A program made the translations under genes and the position numbers. A DNA stretch of 64,000 nucleotides, taken from the NCBI GenBank assembly GCA_963965975.1, contig OZ014423.1:6430401-6494400 (forward strand). Direction: 5' to 3'. A model generated the notes under the pieces. That model was given only the letters and a program-made list of their open reading frames with translations. It was not told the origin of the DNA and ran no database searches. Below are positions 34 through 26,758 of the stretch, in pieces (the stretch's first letter is position 1; each line of letters starts with the position of its first letter). Origin of the DNA: Xestospongia bergquistia. Lineage: Eukaryota > Porifera > Demospongiae > Haplosclerida > Petrosiidae.

Positions 34-1836
34 TTTGTCCCATTTTCTGGTGATAACTTGATATTAACTGGAGCTGAGGATCGTGAAGTACGCCTACATG
101 ATTTAATGAGTTTTGAGACAATCCAAATATGGCCATGTTGCAGTGGACGTGTCAAAAGGTTGGCTGTATCACCTCACTCGCCATTTTTATGTTGGAGTGC
201 ATCTGAAGATGGTTGCATTAGGTATGATGTAACAATGATGTCAGCTAATGTATTAGCTCCACCCACAGGCAGTATGATACCAGAGAATCTCATACTTGTG
301 GACCAGAAGGAAGATGTCGTAATGTATTAATAGATTTACGACAGACGTGTGGTTCAGCTCGTGAACAAACACAATGTAAATGTCTTGATATCAATTCAGT
401 ACGTACTGAGCAGATTGCTGTAGGAAGTTTAGATCCTTATATACGACTCTTTGATACTCGACTTATTTCTCTCTCTTATCCTTGTACTGAGGTGTCAACT
501 AGAGCTGATCCAAGTTGTCTAGCTCATTTTGGTCCTGGTCATGTGACCCGTGACACGGGTAGACATCATCGTCACACAATAGCTGCTACATATGTGACAT
601 TTAGTCCATGTGGTCAACAGCTGTTAGCTAGTCTGTCTGGAGAACAAGTCTATTTATATAGTACAGTAACTTTAGAGCCATTATTTCGCTATAATATGGA
701 AGACGATGAACCATCACTAGTTCAATTGCCACCATTTTGTCCTTTATTGTCATCACATGATCAATCATGTGACCATTCACCTCATCAAGCTGGTGTACAA
801 GAATCTGATGTTCCACTGTTAGCTAAACGACTACGAGATTCAGGCAACCAATGCTATCAAAAACAATTCTATACAGAAGCTATTCAACACTACAGTAGTG
901 GATTAACCCATTGTCCACACTGGTATATTTTATATTCTAATAGAGCCACAGCTTTGATTAGTAGAAATTGGTAAGTTGCTATGACAACTGTGATAAATGT
1001 TATTAGATTTATTAGGAGTGGTGATTTATATGAGGCACTACGAGACACTGAACGAGCTTTATCGTTTTGTCCATCACATCAGAAGTCTTTAAGAAGAAGA
1101 ATAAAGTGTTTACGATCTTTACGTTGGTTAAAAGAGGCACAGTCCTTTTTAGATGATTATCAACGCCATTATCCTGAAGATGAAGATTTTATCAGGTCAA
1201 CAGCTACCAATATTGAGAGAGTATCCAATGAACAACAAGGTATGTCATGATATTATAATAACTTCATGTGTATAATATATCACAGGTCGTAATGGTTATC
1301 ACAGTGGCCATCGTCGAGAGTTGTCCCTCTGGGAAACTGAACGTCAAGCAACAGCTTATGATTATCATCAGCGTTATATAGGACATTGTAATACACACAC
1401 AGATATCAAAGAGGCCTCATTTCTTGGAGAGAGAGGGAATTATATTGCAGCTGGTAGCGATGATGGTAACGTCTTCATTTGGGAGAAGGATAGTGCTAAT
1501 TTAGTTCGTGTATTACATGCTGATGACTCTATTGTTAATTGTATTCAATGGCATCCAAGAACATCATTGTTAGCAACCAGTGGGATTGAAAGTACTATAA
1601 GATTATGGGAACCACGCCCACCTGATGATACTGTCCGAGTTGAAAATGATATGGTACGAGCTTGTCAACATAACCAAACCAGAATGAGTATGGACCCATT
1701 TGAGATCATGTTAATGGGAATGGGTCTACGTATGACAGATGACCCGCCCATCCAATTAGATAATCAACATATAATGATACAAACAAGAGAAGAGTATTTT
1801 ATACCACGTAATACTCCTCAATGTCGCCAAAGTTAA
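34..1836 (+). CDS. WDTC1: WDTC1-like WD40/TPR protein, 5' end missing
   Basis: WDTC1 is a substrate receptor for the CUL4-DDB1 ubiquitin ligase, linked to fat metabolism and chromatin. Only the 3' part is here: bases 1-33 are intron and the first visible exon starts at 34. Exons join as 34-221, 284-970, 1016-1239 and 1286-1836; the introns are 62, 45 and 46 nt and keep frame. The order is WD40 blades (GAEDREVRLHD, SASEDGCIR), a TPR block near 820-1200 (GNQCYQKQFYTEAIQHYSSG), then two more WD40 blades (IAAGSDDGNVFIWEK, LLATSGIESTIRLWEPRP). The tail (NQTRMSMDPFEIML, ending CRQS) follows the vertebrate WDTC1 tail closely. WD40-TPR-WD40 order is specific to this family. The stop lies 6 bp from the stop of the gene on the opposite strand. 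Confidence 0.93.
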
Positions 1837-1842
1837 TGTTTA

Positions 1843-2664
1843 TTATCGTAGCCCTAATGACTGGGGTGTTTGTAATGTGATTTGGTATTGTTGACTACCA
1901 GGTAAAACCTGTTTTAATAACTGGTTATATAATTTATTACTGATGTATAGCTCACCTGATGAGGTAATCTGGGTGTCACTGTTGTAGGAGGAGGGAGTCC
2001 CTAAAATAATTGATTCCTAATAAGATCATAATTAAAATGTATTACTTGTTGTGATAGTATGGCCTTCAAGTAACAGTTCTCTCTAATAAATAAATGATTA
2101 TTATAAGATATTATTTAAGTCCTTACTTGTGTAACTGTTCCCTCTTTTTCTCTTTCTGTGCTAACATCAATTCCATCTAATATTACATAATGTACTTGTA
2201 ATATTAGATGTATCATACATGAGTTACATCTAACATTACATGTATTATTGGATGCATAAGGTCTATGTGCTGGGTACCTGTTTCAATGAATGGCTGTATA
2301 GTTTTTGACGATTACTTTCTTGAAAATTAAAAACTTGTCTAACTCGTTTCAATGTCATAACAGGATTAGTAAGACACATTTCAACTGACGGGGGCAACTA
2401 GAACAGGATAATGACATCATTATGACATCACATTACGTAACTAACAGGACGAGTAAGAGGCACTCCAATACATGCATTATTACATATGGGGCATGTATCA
2501 GTTGAGTCTAAAGAGAGATTGGTCAATGATTACATTTAATAGTTCAACTAACTTGTTTTAATACGACATTGAGAACACACAAAATGACCACAGTTTGTGA
2601 GTTCAAAGGAGACAGCAGTATTACCAGGTCGACTGTAACACATATTACAATGAATCCATTCCAT
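1843..2664 (-). CDS. RNF212: RNF212-like (Zip3/ZHP family) RING finger protein
   Basis: Family members are meiotic SUMO/ubiquitin ligases that mark crossover sites on paired chromosomes. Seven small exons: 2664-2553, 2507-2437, 2397-2278, 2155-2127, 2082-2046, 2000-1956, 1908-1843. They sum to 480 nt (159 residues plus stop) with every junction in phase and GT-AG ends. The start ATG at 2664 gives MEWIHCNMCY, matching the family's N-terminal first zinc pair. The RING continues as LTNCGHFVCSQC, then TCPICNNAC. After it come a helical stretch (VFNFQESNRQKLYSHSLK) and a charged coiled coil (KEKKREQLHKENCYLKAI), then a short Pro/Gln-rich tail. It is shorter than vertebrate RNF212, mostly in the tail. 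RNF212B or another Zip3-type paralogue is possible. It shares a 123-bp spacer with NOP58. Confidence 0.82.
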
Positions 2665-2787
2665 TATAACAATATAAATGATTAATCTCAATGTGAGAAT
2701 GAAAGTTATGGTTGCTATGTGATGTCTGGATATTTCCGCATATTACTTTAGTTGACCTGTGACACGTGGTGTCAGTGTGACGTGAAG
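2665..2787. promoter_or_regulatory. Shared spacer between RNF212-like and NOP58 starts
   Basis: Only 123 bp separate the two divergent start codons, so transcription of both genes must start in or around this spacer. I see no TATA box. Confidence 0.5.
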
Positions 2788-4921
2788 ATGTTGGTACTAT
2801 TCGAGACTGCTGCAGGTTATGCTATCTTTAAGGTAAGCAGAACATTTTATATTTATCTTTGATGATCTCTCTAGCTATTGGATGAGAAGAAACTCCAACA
2901 AGTCGATGATTTGTATAAAGAATTTGAGTCACCAGATACAGCAAATAATGTGTACAGTTAAAATAATATATAATATTTGAATTAATAGGTCTCTTTTATT
3001 TTTAGTGTCAAATTAAAGCATTTTCTTAAATTTGATGACATGACTGAAGCTTTGGCAGGTAAGTTGATTTCTCTAATGATCACATGATTGTCACATGATT
3101 AGCGGCAACTGCTGCCATTGAAGGAAAAATGACTAAAGGCTTAAAAAAGTTATTGAAGAAAGTCTTTGTATCTGATATACATGAGCAGTTAGCAGTTGGT
3201 GATGCTAAGTTAGGTGGTACAATTAAAGAGAAACTCAATATTGGTTGTGTTCATGGTGGAGCAGTGAGTGAATTAATGAGAGGAATACGTCAGCAGATGG
3301 ATAACTTGATTACTGGAGTGCCAGAATCTGGTATCAATGTAATGGCTCTAGGTTTATCACACAGGTACTATCAGATCATTTTATGTACTAATAGTATATT
3401 ACTGTAAACAGCTTGTCACGTTATAAACTGAAGTTTAGTCCTGATAAAGTGGACACTATGATCATACAGGCAATTTGTAAGTATTTTATGATCATTATTT
3501 TAATATAATATTCTTTTTAGCTCTTTTAGATGATCTTGATAAAGAACTCAACAATTATAACATGAGATGTAGAGAATGGTACGGATGGCATTTTCCAGAA
3601 CTAGGCAAACTTGTACCTGATAATCTGACTTACGTCAGGACTGTCAAAGCTATTGGTAAGATCATAGTGAATGTGATCTAATGTAACATTTGGGAACAGT
3701 AATACTAAGATCATTTAACAAGGACCTCTATAGTGTTAATTCCGTATAAAGTTTCAAGCAATGTTGTAATATATTTTAGGCATGAAAGAGTCTATCAGTA
3801 ATGCTGACTTGGCTAGTATTGTACCTGAAGACATTGAAGAGGAAATAAGAGAGGTTGCAGAAATTTCAATGGGAACTGAGGTTAGTAATAAATAAGGTTT
3901 GATAATGTCTAATATTTTTCTATATAGATCTCTGTTGAAGATATGGCCAATATTACTCATCTCTGTAATCAAGCAAGTCATAAAATTATTGTGTAGGGGG
4001 AGACCCTGTATTTGTTGTAGGTAATAGAAATATCTGAATATCGGTCTCAACTGTATGACTATTTGAAGAATCGTATGACAGCTATTGCACCAAATTTGAC
4101 ATTAATGGTTGGAGAGTTAGTAGGTGCACGACTCATTGCACATGCTGGTATATAATGTATATAGTAATCAATATAATATTATTGTATATGATTTAGGGTC
4201 ATTGTTAAATTTAGCAAAGCATCCATCATCTACTGTCCAAATATTAGGTGCTGAAAAAGCTCTATTTAGGTAGGTTAAGTTGTGTGGGTGTGGCTTAATA
4301 TACTTTTTAATAGAGCTCTAAAAACCAAACATGATACGCCCAAATATGGTCTTATATACCATGCCTCTCTTGTTGGACAAAGTGCTCCCAAACACAAAGG
4401 GAAAATATCTCGTATGTTAGCAGCCAAGACATCATTGGCAGCTCGTGTTGATGCACTTGGTGAAGATACTGACACAACTATTGGTATTGAGGCTAAAGCC
4501 AAGGTAATGACCAATAATTAGAGGGTGTGGCTTATTTGTTTGCAGGTTGAGGCTCGATTACGTGAGTGTGAACAGACTAAATTAAGAAGGATTAGTGGTA
4601 CTGGTAGAAGTGGTGTTAAATTAGAAAAATATGAATCAGTGAGGTAAGTAATATTAATTTATGATATTTTGATATAAATCAATATAATTATCATAATGTA
4701 GTGTTCCTCAACAATATGATGAAGGATCTGATTTTACATTTGGACAACGTAAACGTTCACTTGAAGAAGAGGAAGAAGAACAAGAAGTAAAGAAGATAAA
4801 AACAGAGAAAGTTAAAAAAAGAAAGCAAGATGATGTACCTAGTGATGATGATATTGAAGAAGAGACAACAACAATAACTCCAGAAAAAAAGAAAAAGAAG
4901 AAGAAAATTAAATCATGTTAA
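2788..4921 (+). CDS. NOP58: NOP58, core protein of box C/D snoRNPs
   Basis: NOP58 pairs with NOP56 and fibrillarin to guide 2'-O-methylation of rRNA in the nucleolus. The first exon (2788-2832) encodes [15 protein letters not shown], almost identical to animal NOP58. Further exons give the NOP5NT domain, the linker (VADAKLG-like [14 protein letters not shown]), the coiled coil ([20 protein letters not shown], 3530-3600) and the Nop RNP-binding domain ([15 protein letters not shown], then [20 protein letters not shown] near 4340-4400). The C-terminus is a Lys/Glu-rich nucleolar tail (4750-4915), as in vertebrates. The stop TAA at 4919-4921 lies inside the last codons of SON on the other strand. 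The intron near 3660-3778 holds a fragment related to the satellite hairpin found at 11.8-13.8 kb. Confidence 0.96.
3697..3760 (+). repeat. Fragment of the palindromic satellite unit in a NOP58 intron
   Basis: The stretch around 3700-3740 reads like the left arm of the 349-bp unit: a 'cagtaatactaa' lead-in, then 'aacaaggacct'. Only this edge is kept; the central palindrome is absent. It shows that the repeat is dispersed and not confined to the array. Confidence 0.6.
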
Positions 4922-6856
4922 TCCTAACGATTTAAGAGCAGCTAATGCTGCCTGTGCTTTTGCTATTTTCTTGTTATTACTGCTACAAGATGGCTGGAAA
5001 ATACCAGGTTGAATTTTGACCTAAATTAATATTATCACAATTAAATTAAAGGGGTGTGACTGACTCTGTAAAGAAATGCTTTCATGTGGGAAGGTCCTGT
5101 TTCACTAACAACTTCATAAGTGGGTGGGTCCCATTGTTTCTTTGAACATAATTCTTGTAATGCAGATACAGGATGTTTCCCTAATAATTAACATTTAATA
5201 AATAAATTATATTGAAGGTTATTTACCTTGTAAACAAGTGGGTGTTGCTTCATTAGACGGTAAAGTTGAACCAGAAGGTAGATTAGGTTTTTCTTGATCA
5301 GTAGACAAACCTAAATGTGAGTGGGCGGGATTCTTTCATGATAATATTTTCATAATATCTACCTTGTCTATCTGTTTTAACATCTACTGGTATTGGTGCA
5401 ATATGGCCTTGTCCAGATTTACCAAGTGGTTGTCCTAATTCCCATCCCATCTTCATTAACATCCTCATTCCAAAACCACTCATTACAGGAGTCAGACTAT
5501 GAAACATTTTCTATAGTGTCATTATAACTTATCATTATTTAACAAGGTAAGTTACCTTCTTAGCCCAAGCTTGAGGTCCTTTAGAATGGGTAGCTTTATC
5601 CATTGGCGTGATTTCAATATATCCAGTATATTTACCAGGTGTGGTTTGTCCTTGACACCAATGTTTTATCTAACAACAATAACAATAATAATTAAACACA
5701 TTTTATGGGGACACCTTCTCATCTAGTTCTTGTAGTTGAAGTTGAGCTTCAATATTAGCGGAGTCAAGTTGAAGGCGTTGACTAGCTAGTGCTCGTTGAA
5801 CAAGGACTTCACTTAATGATATAGACTATAATATAATGTGTATATTATTATGGTAAATCATAGACCACACCCACCTCATTAGGTGTTTCAACAGACTTGT
5901 CCATATGATGTAATCCTGAAGAGACAGGAAACTTTACTTCTAGTGGGCGTGTATCTATTCCAGTTTCCATGACAACTGGAGTAGGCATTTCATCAACAGC
6001 ACCAGCCTCCTGTTCATTAGTTTCCATGACAACCTCATTAGGAGTAACAACATTATTAATTGTAGGGACTGTCTCTTCTTCAGTATCAGCTACTTTAAAG
6101 GGATGATTTACCTGTTAAAATGACATCAGTTAATTAAAAATAATAATAACAGGAGCTTACTTCTACAGCAGCATCTTGTGTTTGTGATAAGTTACGACAA
6201 AAAGCTGTAAATTCTGCAATTGTATCAGCTTTTGTTTTATAAATAGGATATACTGTTGCTATATTGAAAGGTAGAACCTTCTCGGAACTTGAAGTAGATG
6301 AAGATCGTCTTTGATAACGTCGAGTTGGTATATATTCTCGAGAATGGCTACGACGTCTTGTTCTTCTATTGTGGTCTCTACTTCTGGAGCGTCGTGATCT
6401 ATGGCTGTGATATCTATCCTTGGATCTACTACGATGTCTACTTCTTGACCTACTGCTTTTAGAATGTTGGGGTGACCTACTTCTGTGATGTTGGCTTTTA
6501 GAGTGCTGTGATTTTTTGTGATGTTTCCTTTTCTTATTACTTTTTTTAGTTGACTTATCTTTACTTTCACTCTGATCACTTGACCGATATTCATCAGATG
6601 GGTGTGGTTTGTTTGTAGCTGGCTCCACCTTCTCATTATCATTTTCTTCTATTTGTTCACTTGATGTCTGGCCAGTAGCTGCATCAGTACCAGCAGTATT
6701 GTCACCTGAAGGGACATCAACCCTAGCTATGGTAGCTAACAGTTTGTCAAGTGGAGGAGGAGGGGATTCTTCCTTGTTGCTGTGGTAACGGTGCTTATGT
6801 TTATGATGTTTCTTCTTTTTATGATGTCCACGCGACCTCTCTCTTGATGTAGACAT
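4913..6856 (-). CDS. SON: SON-like splicing cofactor (RS domain, G-patch, dsRNA-binding domain)
   Basis: SON is a nuclear-speckle protein that supports splicing of weak introns. The start ATG at 6856 opens a large first coding exon with Lys/His-rich and Arg/Ser-rich stretches (about 6840-6290). Then come VLPFNIATVYPIYKTKA, an acidic linker, and the SON-specific helix block (SLSEVLVQRALASQRLQL, near 5770-5830). The G-patch follows (MLMKMGWELGQPLGKSGQG, near 5400-5480) and ends KTDRQG. Last is a double-stranded RNA-binding domain (KHPVSALQELCSKKQWDPPT, near 5120-5195; [18 protein letters not shown] at the end). This domain order is diagnostic. The N-terminal repeats of vertebrate SON are absent, so it is far shorter. 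A 5' untranslated exon upstream of 6857 is likely, since 'tttag' sits just before the ATG. The stop is at 4913-4915, inside NOP58. Confidence 0.9.
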
Positions 6857-9507: not shown

Positions 9508-12500
9508 TTATTGTTCCTTTTGATAAGAGTACAATTGTAATAATAAGTACATTGCTGTATCAGCACTAGTCCAGTAACTGTTATGAGCTGTAATAGCATT
9601 CAAATAACTATTTTCTACTAGGCCCTCACGCAACATAAAATCAAGTCGTTCCTTAAGTCGATCTAGTGTTGTTATAATAAATAGATATCCAATAAAATAT
9701 TGCTTACTTTCAGCAGGCAATTTACTGTCATCATCATATAGCTGTAATAATAGGGGCATTCTCATTACATTATTACAGTATTATTAACTCACCTTATCTG
9801 GCGGAGGTGGCTTGCTGCTTGACTCTAAAAATGATGTACTAGCAACTTTCATAACAGCAGAAAAGAGTGACTGAGTCCATCCACTCTCCTTAGCAGGAGC
9901 TGCTGCCTCAGGCATTTTAGGACCTTCAGCTAAACCTTTAGATTTTTTAGATGGTTTACTAGAAGCACTGTCTATTTTGATAGGCTTTACTTGAGCATAC
10001 ATTGGGTTGATTAGTGGTTCTAGACGATATGCCTATATCATATCATATTGAGTAGTATAATATAATATAGTTCCTTACCACAGGATCTGATGGATGATGT
10101 ATATTGTGAATACGTTTACAAATGCAAGAAGGTAAAAATGAGTCAGCTCCTTGATGATCTTTTTTAATGAGATTACTATGCTCTCTCAATATTATAAATA
10201 TACCCAATGGAGACCCCACAGCAAACAAGTGATCAACATTAAAGTTTAATATTTTAGATTCTTGTGTCACGTTTAATTTGGCTTCTAATTCAGCCACTCT
10301 AATTCGGAGTTGCTGCAACTCATCAAATTCTTTATCTAAAATCTCTTGTTTTGGTGGACAAGGTGTATCTAAACAATATATCATCATCATTATCAATGTG
10401 TTATAACATTATTAACATACCTGTCTGATCTATAATAGGATCGATATCCATTTTACTAGGTTCAATATAATCTGTTAGTAATCCTTTAGTACGACATGTC
10501 TCAATGAGAAGATCATAACACATCACACTACCAAGTGAATGAGCAAATAAAGATACAGTACCACCAGATGAAATAAAACTATCATTTCGTGACATAAAAT
10601 CTTTATGTTTCTTATGAAGTTGCCATCGCAAACCATCTAAAATCTTAGGGAGTCTAAAATATATCTCTTTATTATTATGATTTACCTCTGGTCCATATCG
10701 AGGACTCAAATAAAACATTACATCCAATACAGAGTCATTAATAAGACCACGCAATGCCTTCACACTGTGTGGAGTTATAGAAGAAAGGACACCTAGACCA
10801 NNNNNNNNNNNNNNNNNNNNNNNNNNNNNNNNNNNNNNNNNNNNNNNNNNNNNNNNNNNNNNNNNNNNNNNNNNNNNNNNNNNNNNNNNNNNNNNNNNNN
10901 NNNNNNNNNNNNNNNNNNNNNNNNNNNNNNNNNNNNNNNNNNNNNNNNNNNNNNNNNNNNNNNNNNNNNNNNNNNNNNNNNNNNNNNNNNNNNNNNNNNN
11001 CACCCATAATTTAATGAGATGACACTTGATATATGTACCTTGATCTAACTTCAGCCATGTTCTCCATTCTATAGGAATAAACTCAACTCTGTTCTTCTGC
11101 CATTGTTCTGGAAAATGTTTCATAGCAGTCTGACGACAAGTCTCTCTTAAACTAGGTAAAGATCACAACATGTCTGTCCATTTATTCACCAATCCATCCA
11201 TTTACTCCATCTACCAATCCATTTACCTTATCTATTCATCCATTTACATTATTAACTCACTCATTAGTACTCTTCACAATGTCAGACATGTCTAAATTTT
11301 GTCCTATACCATGTACAACAAACACAAGATGACCAATAGGAGGATAACAATCATCTGTAGTAGCTGGTTCAATATAACCTCGCATTAAACGAGTTGCTCC
11401 ATAAAGTTGACCTCTACCAATTTTCTCTCCAACTTTACTCCACAATTTTGAAGTGAGATCTTTCTTAACTTTCATCACTTCATTTTCTCCAATCCAAATT
11501 GCTTCATATCCATTTAAACTAACTTGATGAAATACCACTAGAAAGACATAGAGAGAGATACTATCAAAATTAATGTAAAATATAAAAGCGAATACCATGT
11601 CAATAATATGTGTCACCATGGCAACAATATATTTTGCCTTAACAACAATTACCTTAATATTAATATTTTTATTCCAATTACTGTATTCAATTAATTTATT
11701 TTATTCAAGAAATAATACTCCTATAATTATATTTTGTTACAAGAGTGTAATTACTTAAATAAACTATAAAAAATGGAATAAAATTACTAGAATAATTAAT
11801 GTCACTTAACAAGGACCTCCTATATACCTAACTTCATAATAAATTTAAAGTGATTTGGTGAGGTGGAACAAATTCTGTAAGGAAACTAAAAAGATGCATT
11901 AATTTCCATGTACATTTACTAGTAGAACAAAGGGCATTATATAAATATTTTAAAATAAATAATACAACATATTAGAGCAGTAATACTAATGTCACTTAAC
12001 AAGGACCTATATACCTAACTTCATAATAAATTTATAGTGATTTGGTGAAGTAGACCAAATTCTCAAATTTTGGCTCGAGACCATGGACTATAGTCCATGG
12101 TCTCGAGCCAAAAATGGTCAAAAATGATAAGTAGTGAAATCACATCAAATTTTTTATGAAGTTAGCTATATAGGTCCTTGTTGAGTAGAGTAATTATTTC
12201 TGCTCAGAAATGTTGTAAAAGTCTGGAAAAAAACCTAAAAAGATGCATTAATTTCCATGTACATTTACTAGTAGAACAAAGGGCATTATATAAATATTTT
12301 AAAATAAATAATACAACATATTAGAGCAGTAATACTAATGTCACTTAACAAGGACCTATATACCTAACTTCATAATAAATTTATAGTGATTTGGTGAAGT
12401 AGACCAAATTCTCAAATTTTGGCTCGAGACCATGGACTATAGTCCATGGTCTCGAGCCAAAAATGGTCAAAAATGATAAGTAGTGAAATCACATCAAATT

Positions 12501-14762
12501 TTTTATGAAGTTAGCTATATAGGTCCTTGTTGAGTAGAGTAATTATTTCTGCTCAGAAATGTTGTAAAAGTCTGGAAAAAAACCTAAAAAGATGCATTAA
12601 TTTCCATGTACATTTACTAGTAGAACAAAGGGCATTATATAAATATTTTAAAATAAATAATACAACATATTAGAGCAGTAATACTAATGTCACTTAACAA
12701 GGACCTATATACCTAACTTCATAATAAATTTATAGTGATTTGGTGACGTAGACCAAATTCTCAAATTTTGGCTCGAGACCATGGACTATAGTCCATGGTC
12801 TCGAGCCAAAAATGGTCAAAAATGATAAGTAGTGAAATCACATCAAATTTTTTATGAAGTTAGCTATATAGGTCCTTGTTGAGTAGAGTAATTATTTCTG
12901 CTCAGAAATGTTGTAAAAGTCTGGAAAAAAACCTAAAAAGATGCATTAATTTCCATGTACATTTACTAGTAGAACAAAGGGCATTATATAAATATTTTAA
13001 AATAAATAATACAACATATTAGAGCAGTAATACTAATGTCACTTAACAAGGACCTATATACCTAACTTCATAATAAATTTATAGTGATTTGGTGACGTAG
13101 ACCAAATTCTCAAATTTTGGCTCGAGACCATGGACTATAGTCCATGGTCTCGAGCCAAAAATGGTCAAAAATGATAAGTAGTGAAATCACATCAAATTTT
13201 TTATGAAGTTAGCTATATAGGTCCTTGTTGAGTAGAGTAATTATTTCTGCTCAGAAATGTTGTAAAAGTCTGGAAAAAAACCTAAAAAGATGCATTAATT
13301 TCCATGTACATTTACTAGTAGAACAAAGGGCATTATATAAATATTTTAAAATAAATAATACAACATATTAGAGCAGTAATACTAATGTCACTTAACAAGG
13401 ACCTATATACCTAACTTCATAATAAATTTATAGTGATTTGGTGACGTAGACCAAATTCTCAAATTTTGGCTCGAGACCATGGACTATAGTCCATGGTCTC
13501 GAGCCAAAAATGGTCAAAAATGATAAGTAGTGAAATCACATCAAATTTTTTATGAAGTTAGCTATATAGGTCCTTGTTGAGTAGAGTAATTATTTCTGCT
13601 CAGAAATGTTGTAAAAGTCTGGAAAAAAACCTAAAAAGATGCATTAATTTCCATGTACATTTACTAGTAGAACAAAGGGCATTATATAAATATTTTAAAA
13701 TAAATAATACAACATATTAGAGCAGTAATACTAATGTCACTTAACAAGGCCTAAAATGATAGGTAGTGAAATCACTTTAAATTTTTTTATGAAACCAGCT
13801 AATAGGTTCTTGTGGAGTAATTTTTTGTGCTCAGAAATGTTGTTAAAGTGTGTGAAACTATTAATATACAGGATAAAGGACTATTGTTGATGGTCTGGAG
13901 CAAAAAGTTGAAATCTCCATGGTAACATTTACCATAGGAAAATCCCCAAAACAACAACATTTAGTATTTATTATAACAATAATTATCCAGTATCAATTAT
14001 AAAGTAAGTGAAAATATGTTACCATAACAACAATTGTCATAGTACCAATTACAAAGCAGAATATACCTATGATCTGAGATTGTGAACTACGCCTCTCAAT
14101 TGATGACAGTTGACTTTGTGCAGCCCAATGAGTTAATTCTACATCAGCTTTAGCCTATATGACTCATTATGACAATTATGATGACATCATTCTTACTTTC
14201 TCACGCCAATCTCTTCGAGTGTGTGCTTCTTCAATAATGGCAGCATCTTCTTCTTTGAGTGGATACCATTTATCAGAACTTGATACTTCAAACCAAGTTC
14301 CTCTCATAACACACCACCCAACAGGCACTATACATATAGAAGTATTAATGATATGAACATTACAACATACTAGTCCAGTATATAGGAAACAAGTAGGAAG
14401 AGCCTTCAACTTGTAAATTTACTACAAACATATTCCCCATAACTTCAACCTCAGTAGAGACTATGTCTGGAGATATACTGTGTTGACTGAGAAGATGAAG
14501 ATGTGCATCTTCAAGTTTTAAAGAATCATAGCCAGAAAATGGTTTCCAAAATTTATTGGGTTCGAAGTAGAACCATCTATATTTACAACAATATAATATT
14601 AAGATACAGCATATAGAATAGGACATACCTAATAAGATGTGGCTGTAAAGGAGGGACACTAATAGGGATTGTTATCTGTTGGTTTAATTTTAAAGGAACA
14701 CTTTGTGCTTTACGTGGAGGAGGTGGACGTTCAGGTCTACACTCTTTTGTACTAGTCGCCAT
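9508..14762 (-). CDS. DDHD1: DDHD-domain phospholipase A1 (intracellular PLA1 family), interrupted by an assembly gap
   Basis: It hydrolyses phosphatidic acid and other phospholipids, acting at ER/Golgi and mitochondrial membranes. The ATG at 14762 gives MATSTKECRP. Next come WFYFEPNKFWKPFSGYDSLK (near 14515-14580) and a WWE-like region (WCVMRGTWFEVSSSDKWYPL, near 14260-14320). The lipase region has LVFVVHGIGQNLD and a serine motif AHSLGS, with the nucleophile codon at 10536-10538; its first Gly is replaced by Ala. The DDHD domain ends with VDHLFAVGSPLGIF, HPSDPVAYRLEPLINP and a final helical segment. Bases 10801-11000 are N, so the part between EWRTWLKLD and GVLSSITPHSVKAL is incomplete. One intron (about 11541-14061) is about fifty times the local norm and carries the satellite array. 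DDHD1 versus DDHD2 is not certain. Confidence 0.88.
10801..11000. other. Assembly gap of 200 N
   Basis: Exactly 200 N inside the DDHD gene. A round number suggests a placeholder length. It removes an exon or part of one between the lipase and DDHD regions, and lies about 800 bp from the tandem array. Confidence 0.97.
11799..13855. repeat. 349-bp tandem satellite with 46-bp perfect palindromes
   Basis: Five complete units, each exactly 349 bp when marked at the sequence 'gatgcattaatttcc', start at 11893, 12242, 12591, 12940 and 13289. A truncated left copy begins near 11799, and a sixth begins at 13638 and decays by about 13855. By eye the full units are near identical. One clear variant is 'ggtgaagtag' in units 1-2 against 'ggtgacgtag' in units 3-5. 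Each unit has a perfect 46-bp palindrome (arms of 23 bp, no spacer) at 12068-12113, 12417-12462, 12766-12811, 13115-13160 and 13464-13509. The palindrome is the core of a longer imperfect hairpin, for example 11998-12182, whose ends read 'aacaaggacctata' and its inverse. A hairpin element of the MITE type turned into a satellite is the likely origin. The array lies wholly in one intron of the DDHD gene. Confidence 0.95.
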
Positions 14763-14795
14763 TACGAACCTGAGTGTAGCAGTGTACGGACAGAA

Positions 14796-26340: not shown

Positions 26341-26656
26341 TATACATCAAATATTACTACTAGTCAATACATTTATCAGTACATTGTCTTTAATAAATAA
26401 TATCAATATAACATTTATAGTACCATATATTAAAATAAAGGTTTCTGATTATAGTAGGTTTTATAAGGTGAGTGTTATAATGAACATAGTCATGGACCCT
26501 TGAACAATGTTATGTAATCTAATCATATGTAGTCTTGATTCTTATATACAGCCCTGAATGTATCATCATGAATGACCTTTTTTGGGTGGACTATAAATAG
26601 CTCAACCTTAATATAGAAATATAGTTTAATATATCTGTCAGATGAAGTAATGGAGC

Positions 26657-26758
26657 AGGAAATTCTGACTCTGACTAGTGGAATGTCATCTTGGATGTCA
26701 CACCTGCAGGAAATTCTGACTCTGACTAGTGGTGGAATGTCATCTTGGAGTCACACCT
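26657..26758. repeat. 50-bp direct tandem duplication
   Basis: Two adjacent copies of a unit starting 'caggaaattctgactctgac', at 26657-26706 and 26707-26758. They differ by a three-base insertion and a few small changes. The same block is flanked by a second, looser repeat containing 'gaaatatagtttaatat'. Confidence 0.8.

Follow-up and report, generated by a model that had tools for sequence, protein, structure and literature searches.

How a run of nearly identical tandem units, each with a perfect palindrome at its centre, came to lie inside an intron is the question raised by this sponge locus. The window, which is the whole 64-kb stretch of DNA analysed, provides the array itself, and searches of the genome to which it belongs provide its relatives. 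A literature search found no paper joining satellite DNA, a sponge genome and tandem repeats.

The array, its foldback unit and its host intron

Tandem Repeats Finder, run on the window, places the array at 11886-13753 (plus strand), with a period of 349 bp, 5.4 copies and 99% matches. A script finds a single variable site among the five full units, which is A in units 1-2 and C in units 3-5, and their identity is 99.7-100%; units at other loci, full or near-full, have 65-84% identity to the window unit, and the window units are thus more alike than those found elsewhere. The five full units on a 349-bp period described by the sequence-only reading are confirmed by both results; units as different as unrelated repeats would have spoken against that reading, and only one position differs; their near identity fits the recent expansion or conversion that it proposed. 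The longest stop-to-stop frame in the unit is 52 aa; the array is made of non-coding tandem units and is, by this measure, satellite DNA. At its left edge lies a short unit without hairpin (about 11797-11984, plus strand), in which the left arm is joined straight to the spacer, and at its right edge a truncated hairpin (about 13743-13857, plus strand), in which most of the left arm and the palindrome are missing; the earlier reading is corrected at the edges, where these two degenerate units lie. The copy number is that of one assembly, in which a 200-N gap at 10801-11000 lies about 800 bp from the array.

Each of the five units carries one and the same perfect, loop-free 46-mer palindrome, as had been claimed: 12068-12113 in unit 1, 12417-12462 in unit 2, 12766-12811 in unit 3, 13115-13160 in unit 4 and 13464-13509 in unit 5. 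Beyond these five, the script found no perfect loop-free palindrome of at least 20 bp anywhere in the 64-kb window, and the chance expectation of a 46-bp one in this length (about 64000 x 4^-23) is negligible. The palindrome forms the apex of a larger foldback, which in unit 1 occupies 11963-12217, where two arms of 81 nt, complementary at 80%, enclose a centre of 93 nt, and which recurs every 349 bp; the right arm is also able to pair with the left arm of the next unit across a 94-nt spacer. Folding of a 276-nt fragment with the hairpin of unit 2 predicts -119.6 kcal/mol for the plus strand and -119.1 kcal/mol for the minus strand (z about -15). Thus, the strong hairpin first proposed is retained, but its length of about 185 bp was an underestimate, the stem being longer.

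The array lies, as the earlier reading supposed, in an intron, a GT-AG interval of 2,529 nt on the minus strand (11538-14066) across whose splice the reading frame is open; short introns nearby had also been noted, and the host gene has another of 52 nt. This gene, on the minus strand, extends approximately over 9787-14770, and its exon readings give matches below the curated Pfam cut-offs to WWE (21.0 bits, cut-off 21.1), WWE_2 (21.1 bits, cut-off 25.3) and DDHD (25.5 bits, cut-off 28.3); with such sub-threshold matches, it may be a WWE/DDHD-like gene, putatively coding for a DDHD-type phospholipase-like protein.

A dispersed family and the DNA that travels with it

DNA searches covered the genome of the window itself (146 Mb, 21 contigs) and gave at least 192 matches for a 702-bp query, at least 90 for the hairpin and at least 44 for the spacer. 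In 41 fetched regions at least 54 segments were delimited, corresponding to at least 40 loci at 20 kb spacing; some matches seen in the searches, e.g. C1:4983808 and part of a C12 array, are outside this set. Most delimited copies hold hairpin and spacer together, and 46 of the 54 segments are 0.5-3 units long. The longest array seen, on C12, measures about 7.6 kb, and C12 matches that span about 13-14 kb were examined in part, in an assembly that may lack heterochromatin. The unit of the window array thus belongs to a dispersed family and is not private to the host intron; the best label for the array is that of a dispersed short-array satellite whose unit is a foldback, and the family behaves as such DNA by most tests.

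The hairpin-less short unit that opens the window array is also found at six places on C9 and at C2:15894740, and its deletion junction recurs in the C9 and C2 copies, suggesting that array pieces probably moved between chromosomes. Neighbouring DNA is shared too, since 1.1-2 kb beyond the array is common to several loci. On C14 this flank consists of the 3' portion of a gene that has its stop at 205327. The protein of this gene has matches to dynein regulatory complex subunit 4, also named DRC4 or GAS8, in Pfam (GAS domain, E 1.5e-31) and in PDB (E 5.2e-63). A 1.55-kb flank of the C14 array is matched in 15 of 40 other fetched regions, and DRC4 coding sequence is present at C8, C2:5678, C2:4369 and C1:198. 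Moreover, a 186-bp exon-intron piece (204587-204772) occurs at C2:4796, C2:4802 and C2:7873 (92-94%); since the copies keep the DRC4 introns, DNA was what got copied.

The order of these pieces is not constant. At C1:198.7-200.5 kb it is flank, array and DRC4 exon, which is permuted with respect to C14 and amounts to slightly more than one turn; the junction between array and DRC4 exon at this place is matched exactly once in the genome, and the 11 further places found at 3 mismatches are, judged by position, unrelated. At C2:4796, C2:4802 and C2:7873 the block known from C14 runs from its array-side end (207356) directly, to within 1-2 bp, into DRC4 at 204587, which is the order expected from a closed circle of C14:204587-207356; these three loci may descend from one insertion. 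At C2:5678622, the copy has exactly at its two borders a direct repeat of 48 bp with 46 identical positions (2 mismatches). From the permuted junctions and this repeat we infer reintegration of circles or concatemers and insertion by break repair, but a tandem duplication at the source could also give the circle-like order seen on C1 and C2. Satellite pieces have carried exons of a host gene to new sites in a circle-like order.

The distribution of the family is biased towards contig ends, with 25 of 40 loci within 600 kb of one versus at most 17% expected. However, a 636-bp part of the C14 flank, which is a common repeat in its own right, is also mostly terminal among its listed places (judged by eye, with the sizes of some contigs only), and the bias is therefore not specific to the satellite. 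The window reaches the contig end, and its final 1 kb shows no telomere repeat.

Palindromes and covariation among the hairpins

A 38-bp core of the window palindrome, searched with up to 3 mismatches allowed, has five occurrences in the genome, each of them in the window array; only the perfect palindrome is private to it. Perfect apex palindromes with different letters occur at C14:89494 (52 bp), C2:4371528 (40 bp) and C14:144298 (24 bp), and at C7:8255708 perfect arms of 17 bp are separated by 3 nt. Overall, perfect centre arms of at least 12 bp are present in 9 of the 74 full hairpins, five being those of the window, and the other 65 have none longer than 6 bp. In a 15-bp core, the window palindrome and those at C14:89494, C2:4371528 and C14:144298 differ at 3 positions, and every difference is paired; as these copies were chosen for being perfect, the comparison shows only that the palindrome has been perfect with more than one sequence. 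The statement that long perfect palindromes tend to be deleted thus holds by half: other copies hold perfect palindromes of their own with different sequences, suggesting that palindromes are regenerated or corrected.

The cause of the pairing was addressed with 40 of the 74 hairpins, leaving aside four window units, 26 of the 28 units of C12 and four segmental duplicates. Over the outer 55 nt, the two arms of a copy are no more similar to each other than to arms of other copies (0.767 within copies versus 0.771 between copies; 4210 of 5000 permutations reach as high a value), whereas in the centre they are (0.530 versus 0.440; none of 5000). The arm's own partner is its best match in 8 of the 40 copies for the centre and in 4 of the 40 for the outer stem. 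Likewise, covariation from pair counts on alignment A1 is 0.055 for the outer stem, versus 0.058 in shuffles (score reached by 388 of 500), and 0.061 for the centre, versus 0.048 in shuffles (3 of 500); the centre, which is hard to align, is unexceptional by doubly changed pairs (249 of 500 shuffles) and by pair types (473 of 500). Neither the shuffles nor the permutations account for relatedness between copies, so that subfamily structure can inflate the centre signal. This pattern, with arms that co-vary at the apex and an outer stem that does not, points to local correction by template switching and not to selection on the whole hairpin: selection on a hairpin RNA should also reach the outer stem, while a short-range switch acts near the apex.

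As to the direction of copying, when the half-palindrome of the window is compared with 39 other copies, right arms match better in 25, left arms in 8, and 6 are ties; the last two figures mean that the direction is not unanimous. The copy at C13:6369539, 73 kb from the window array, matches the half-palindrome with a score of 18 of 21 for its right arm versus 7 for its left, and its mismatches are 14 of 42 (3 gaps) over the left middle and centre and 5 of 48 over the right. These comparisons, made within one genome, support an origin of the window palindrome in which one arm would be a reverse-complement copy of the other, with a related copy keeping the older arm; alternatively, the ancestor may have been palindromic and have lost the match on one side later.

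Competing explanations and significance

Three other explanations of the locus have to be weighed. The units could belong to a MITE or foldback DNA transposon with terminal inverted repeats, whose head-to-tail copies form the palindrome where their termini abut. The long inverted arms fit this proposal, as do four C11 copies (596249, 597634, 1575575 and 1673996) that start and end near the apex and are close to one or two units long, 1575575 and 1673996 having a common left flank. Nevertheless, the 54 segments start and end at many phases of the unit, no fixed termini were found among them, and the copies that end at the apex have no common terminus when read; moreover, alignments tend to halt in the variable centre, which biases phases towards it. 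Exact direct repeats of at least 10 in a segment's own flanks occur in 6 of 52 segments versus 3.2% of mismatched flank pairs, but three of the six come from one C12 array split internally by the script, and their lengths differ; apart from the lone 48-bp case, no general or fixed-length target-site duplication was found, and a transposon of this type is a rather unlikely source. By a hand count, with a range picked afterwards and to which no weight is given, about 15 of 79 deduplicated ends fall at phases 78-110 versus about 8 expected. A fixed-end MITE, prompted by end phases near 80-105, was dropped after the ends were read, this cluster being due partly to one event common to the DRC4-linked copies and to alignments that halt early in the variable centre.

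If, instead, the arrays were internal repeats of a larger non-autonomous element, e.g. a Helitron that captured the 3' end of DRC4, the flank shared by 15 of 40 regions, in some with DRC4 exons and introns, would be accounted for. We consider this unlikely, since neither end of the shared block is constant from locus to locus, some loci have its pieces in permuted order, 25 of the 40 regions have no match to the C14 flank, and one part of the block is a common repeat in its own right; among the loci compared, no shared 5' and 3' ends were found around the array. One copy, in addition, is flanked by the 48-bp duplication, and Helitrons are not known to make any. It is very improbable that the hairpins are functional RNA, as small-RNA precursors or as regulators of editing or splicing of the host gene: the folding predicted on both strands is very stable and the position is intronic, yet the outer stem does not co-vary, which speaks against conservation of a hairpin RNA, Rfam gives nothing at gathering scores for the window or for L006, and 65 of 74 full hairpins lack a perfect centre arm above 6 bp.

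The account that we hold to be probable as a whole is that of a dispersed foldback satellite, a palindrome made by arm copying and a local amplification in the intron. Its source would be a dispersed non-coding satellite with a foldback unit, in which two long, imperfect inverted arms flank a palindromic centre and to which a spacer also belongs. Short array pieces, at times with neighbouring DNA, were copied to new places, probably with circles or tandem DNA as intermediates and by way of break repair, and one piece would have landed in the host intron. Within one founder unit, the reverse complement of the right side of the apex may then have replaced the left side, by short-range template switching or by arm-to-arm conversion in the hairpin, and the perfect 46-bp palindrome would be the result. 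Five near-identical copies of this unit would then have arisen through unequal crossing over or conversion, the array being presumably a near-neutral passenger of the intron.

Similar traits are known from other systems. TCAST-like elements of Tribolium castaneum range from dispersed partial monomers to short tandem arrays in euchromatin, 29 of 68 being in introns (PMC3411249); the window family also consists of dispersed short arrays, but its unit is a foldback and no large heterochromatic source array was seen. In the mollusc satellite phBglII400, 13 of 16 breakpoints are within a 12-bp palindrome (PMC5139131); abrupt array ends and pieces linked with other sequence are found here as well, whereas the ends are spread over the unit. 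The Tetris/TIR-220 satellite of Drosophila virilis is foldback-derived, with units inside the terminal repeats of a transposon (PMC4079207), and shares with the present one the tie to inverted-repeat DNA, but no transposon ends were found here. Finally, template switches have been described that build a perfect stem in a single step, repair stems and homogenise the arms of inverted repeats (PMC8794818, PMC8604942), which would fit the present hairpins; unlike these published cases, in RNA genes and yeast coding genes, the present one concerns the apex of a satellite. To the known dispersed short-array satellites, this family adds replicate hairpins that may separate arm correction from selection.

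A more tentative proposal, to which we give somewhat less than even odds, is that this satellite keeps a natural record of short-range template switching in an animal germ line, the apex of each dispersed hairpin being repeatedly made into a perfect palindrome by its own arm and the outer stem being left to decay freely. Compensatory changes in stems are usually taken as proof of a functional structure. Here, compensatory changes restricted to the apex fit a mutational cause, and the replicate hairpins provide a test set; if the proposal is true, the family would separate mutational correction of the arms from selection on structure.

Window features and a pair of similar genes

Within the window, a 51-bp unit is found in two tandem copies at 26655-26758, with 92% matches. 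An assembly gap of 200 N (10801-11000) lies inside the WWE/DDHD-like host gene, close to the array. In another sequence, L071, two adjacent genes similar to each other were read from ORFs on the minus strand (213-6685); one of them encodes a putative kinase-like C-terminus.

Repeats next to arrays of the family

Ends of arrays elsewhere in the genome are directly adjoined by minisatellites with units resembling GTATACAGTAAAGGTACATTTGT, found at C14:207.0-207.2 kb, C14:355.8 kb, C2:4798.7 kb and C2:4804.4 kb (C1, C2 and C14 are contigs of the same genome). Beside the C14 array there is also a repeat with a higher GC content, some 565-636 bp long (C14:205615-206250, corresponding to 820-1455 of the fetched region L006), with relatives elsewhere; it is present in at least 40 places in the genome, with 87-98% identity across 40 scored places, and the majority of these scored copies, as judged by eye, are close to contig ends.

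Inserted and permuted DRC4-array DNA

An insertion of 1.9 kb at C2:5678574-5680556, composed of an array and a piece of DRC4 (dynein regulatory complex subunit 4, GAS8), has on both sides a direct repeat of 48 bp with two mismatches. A second permuted junction, where an upstream DRC4 exon-intron piece is fused to the array-side minisatellite end, is shared by three C2 loci (4804578-4804764, 4798860-4799046 and 7873130-7873316). At C1:198720-200489, a copy of DRC4 3' DNA together with an array has its parts in permuted order, which suggests a circular or tandem intermediate.
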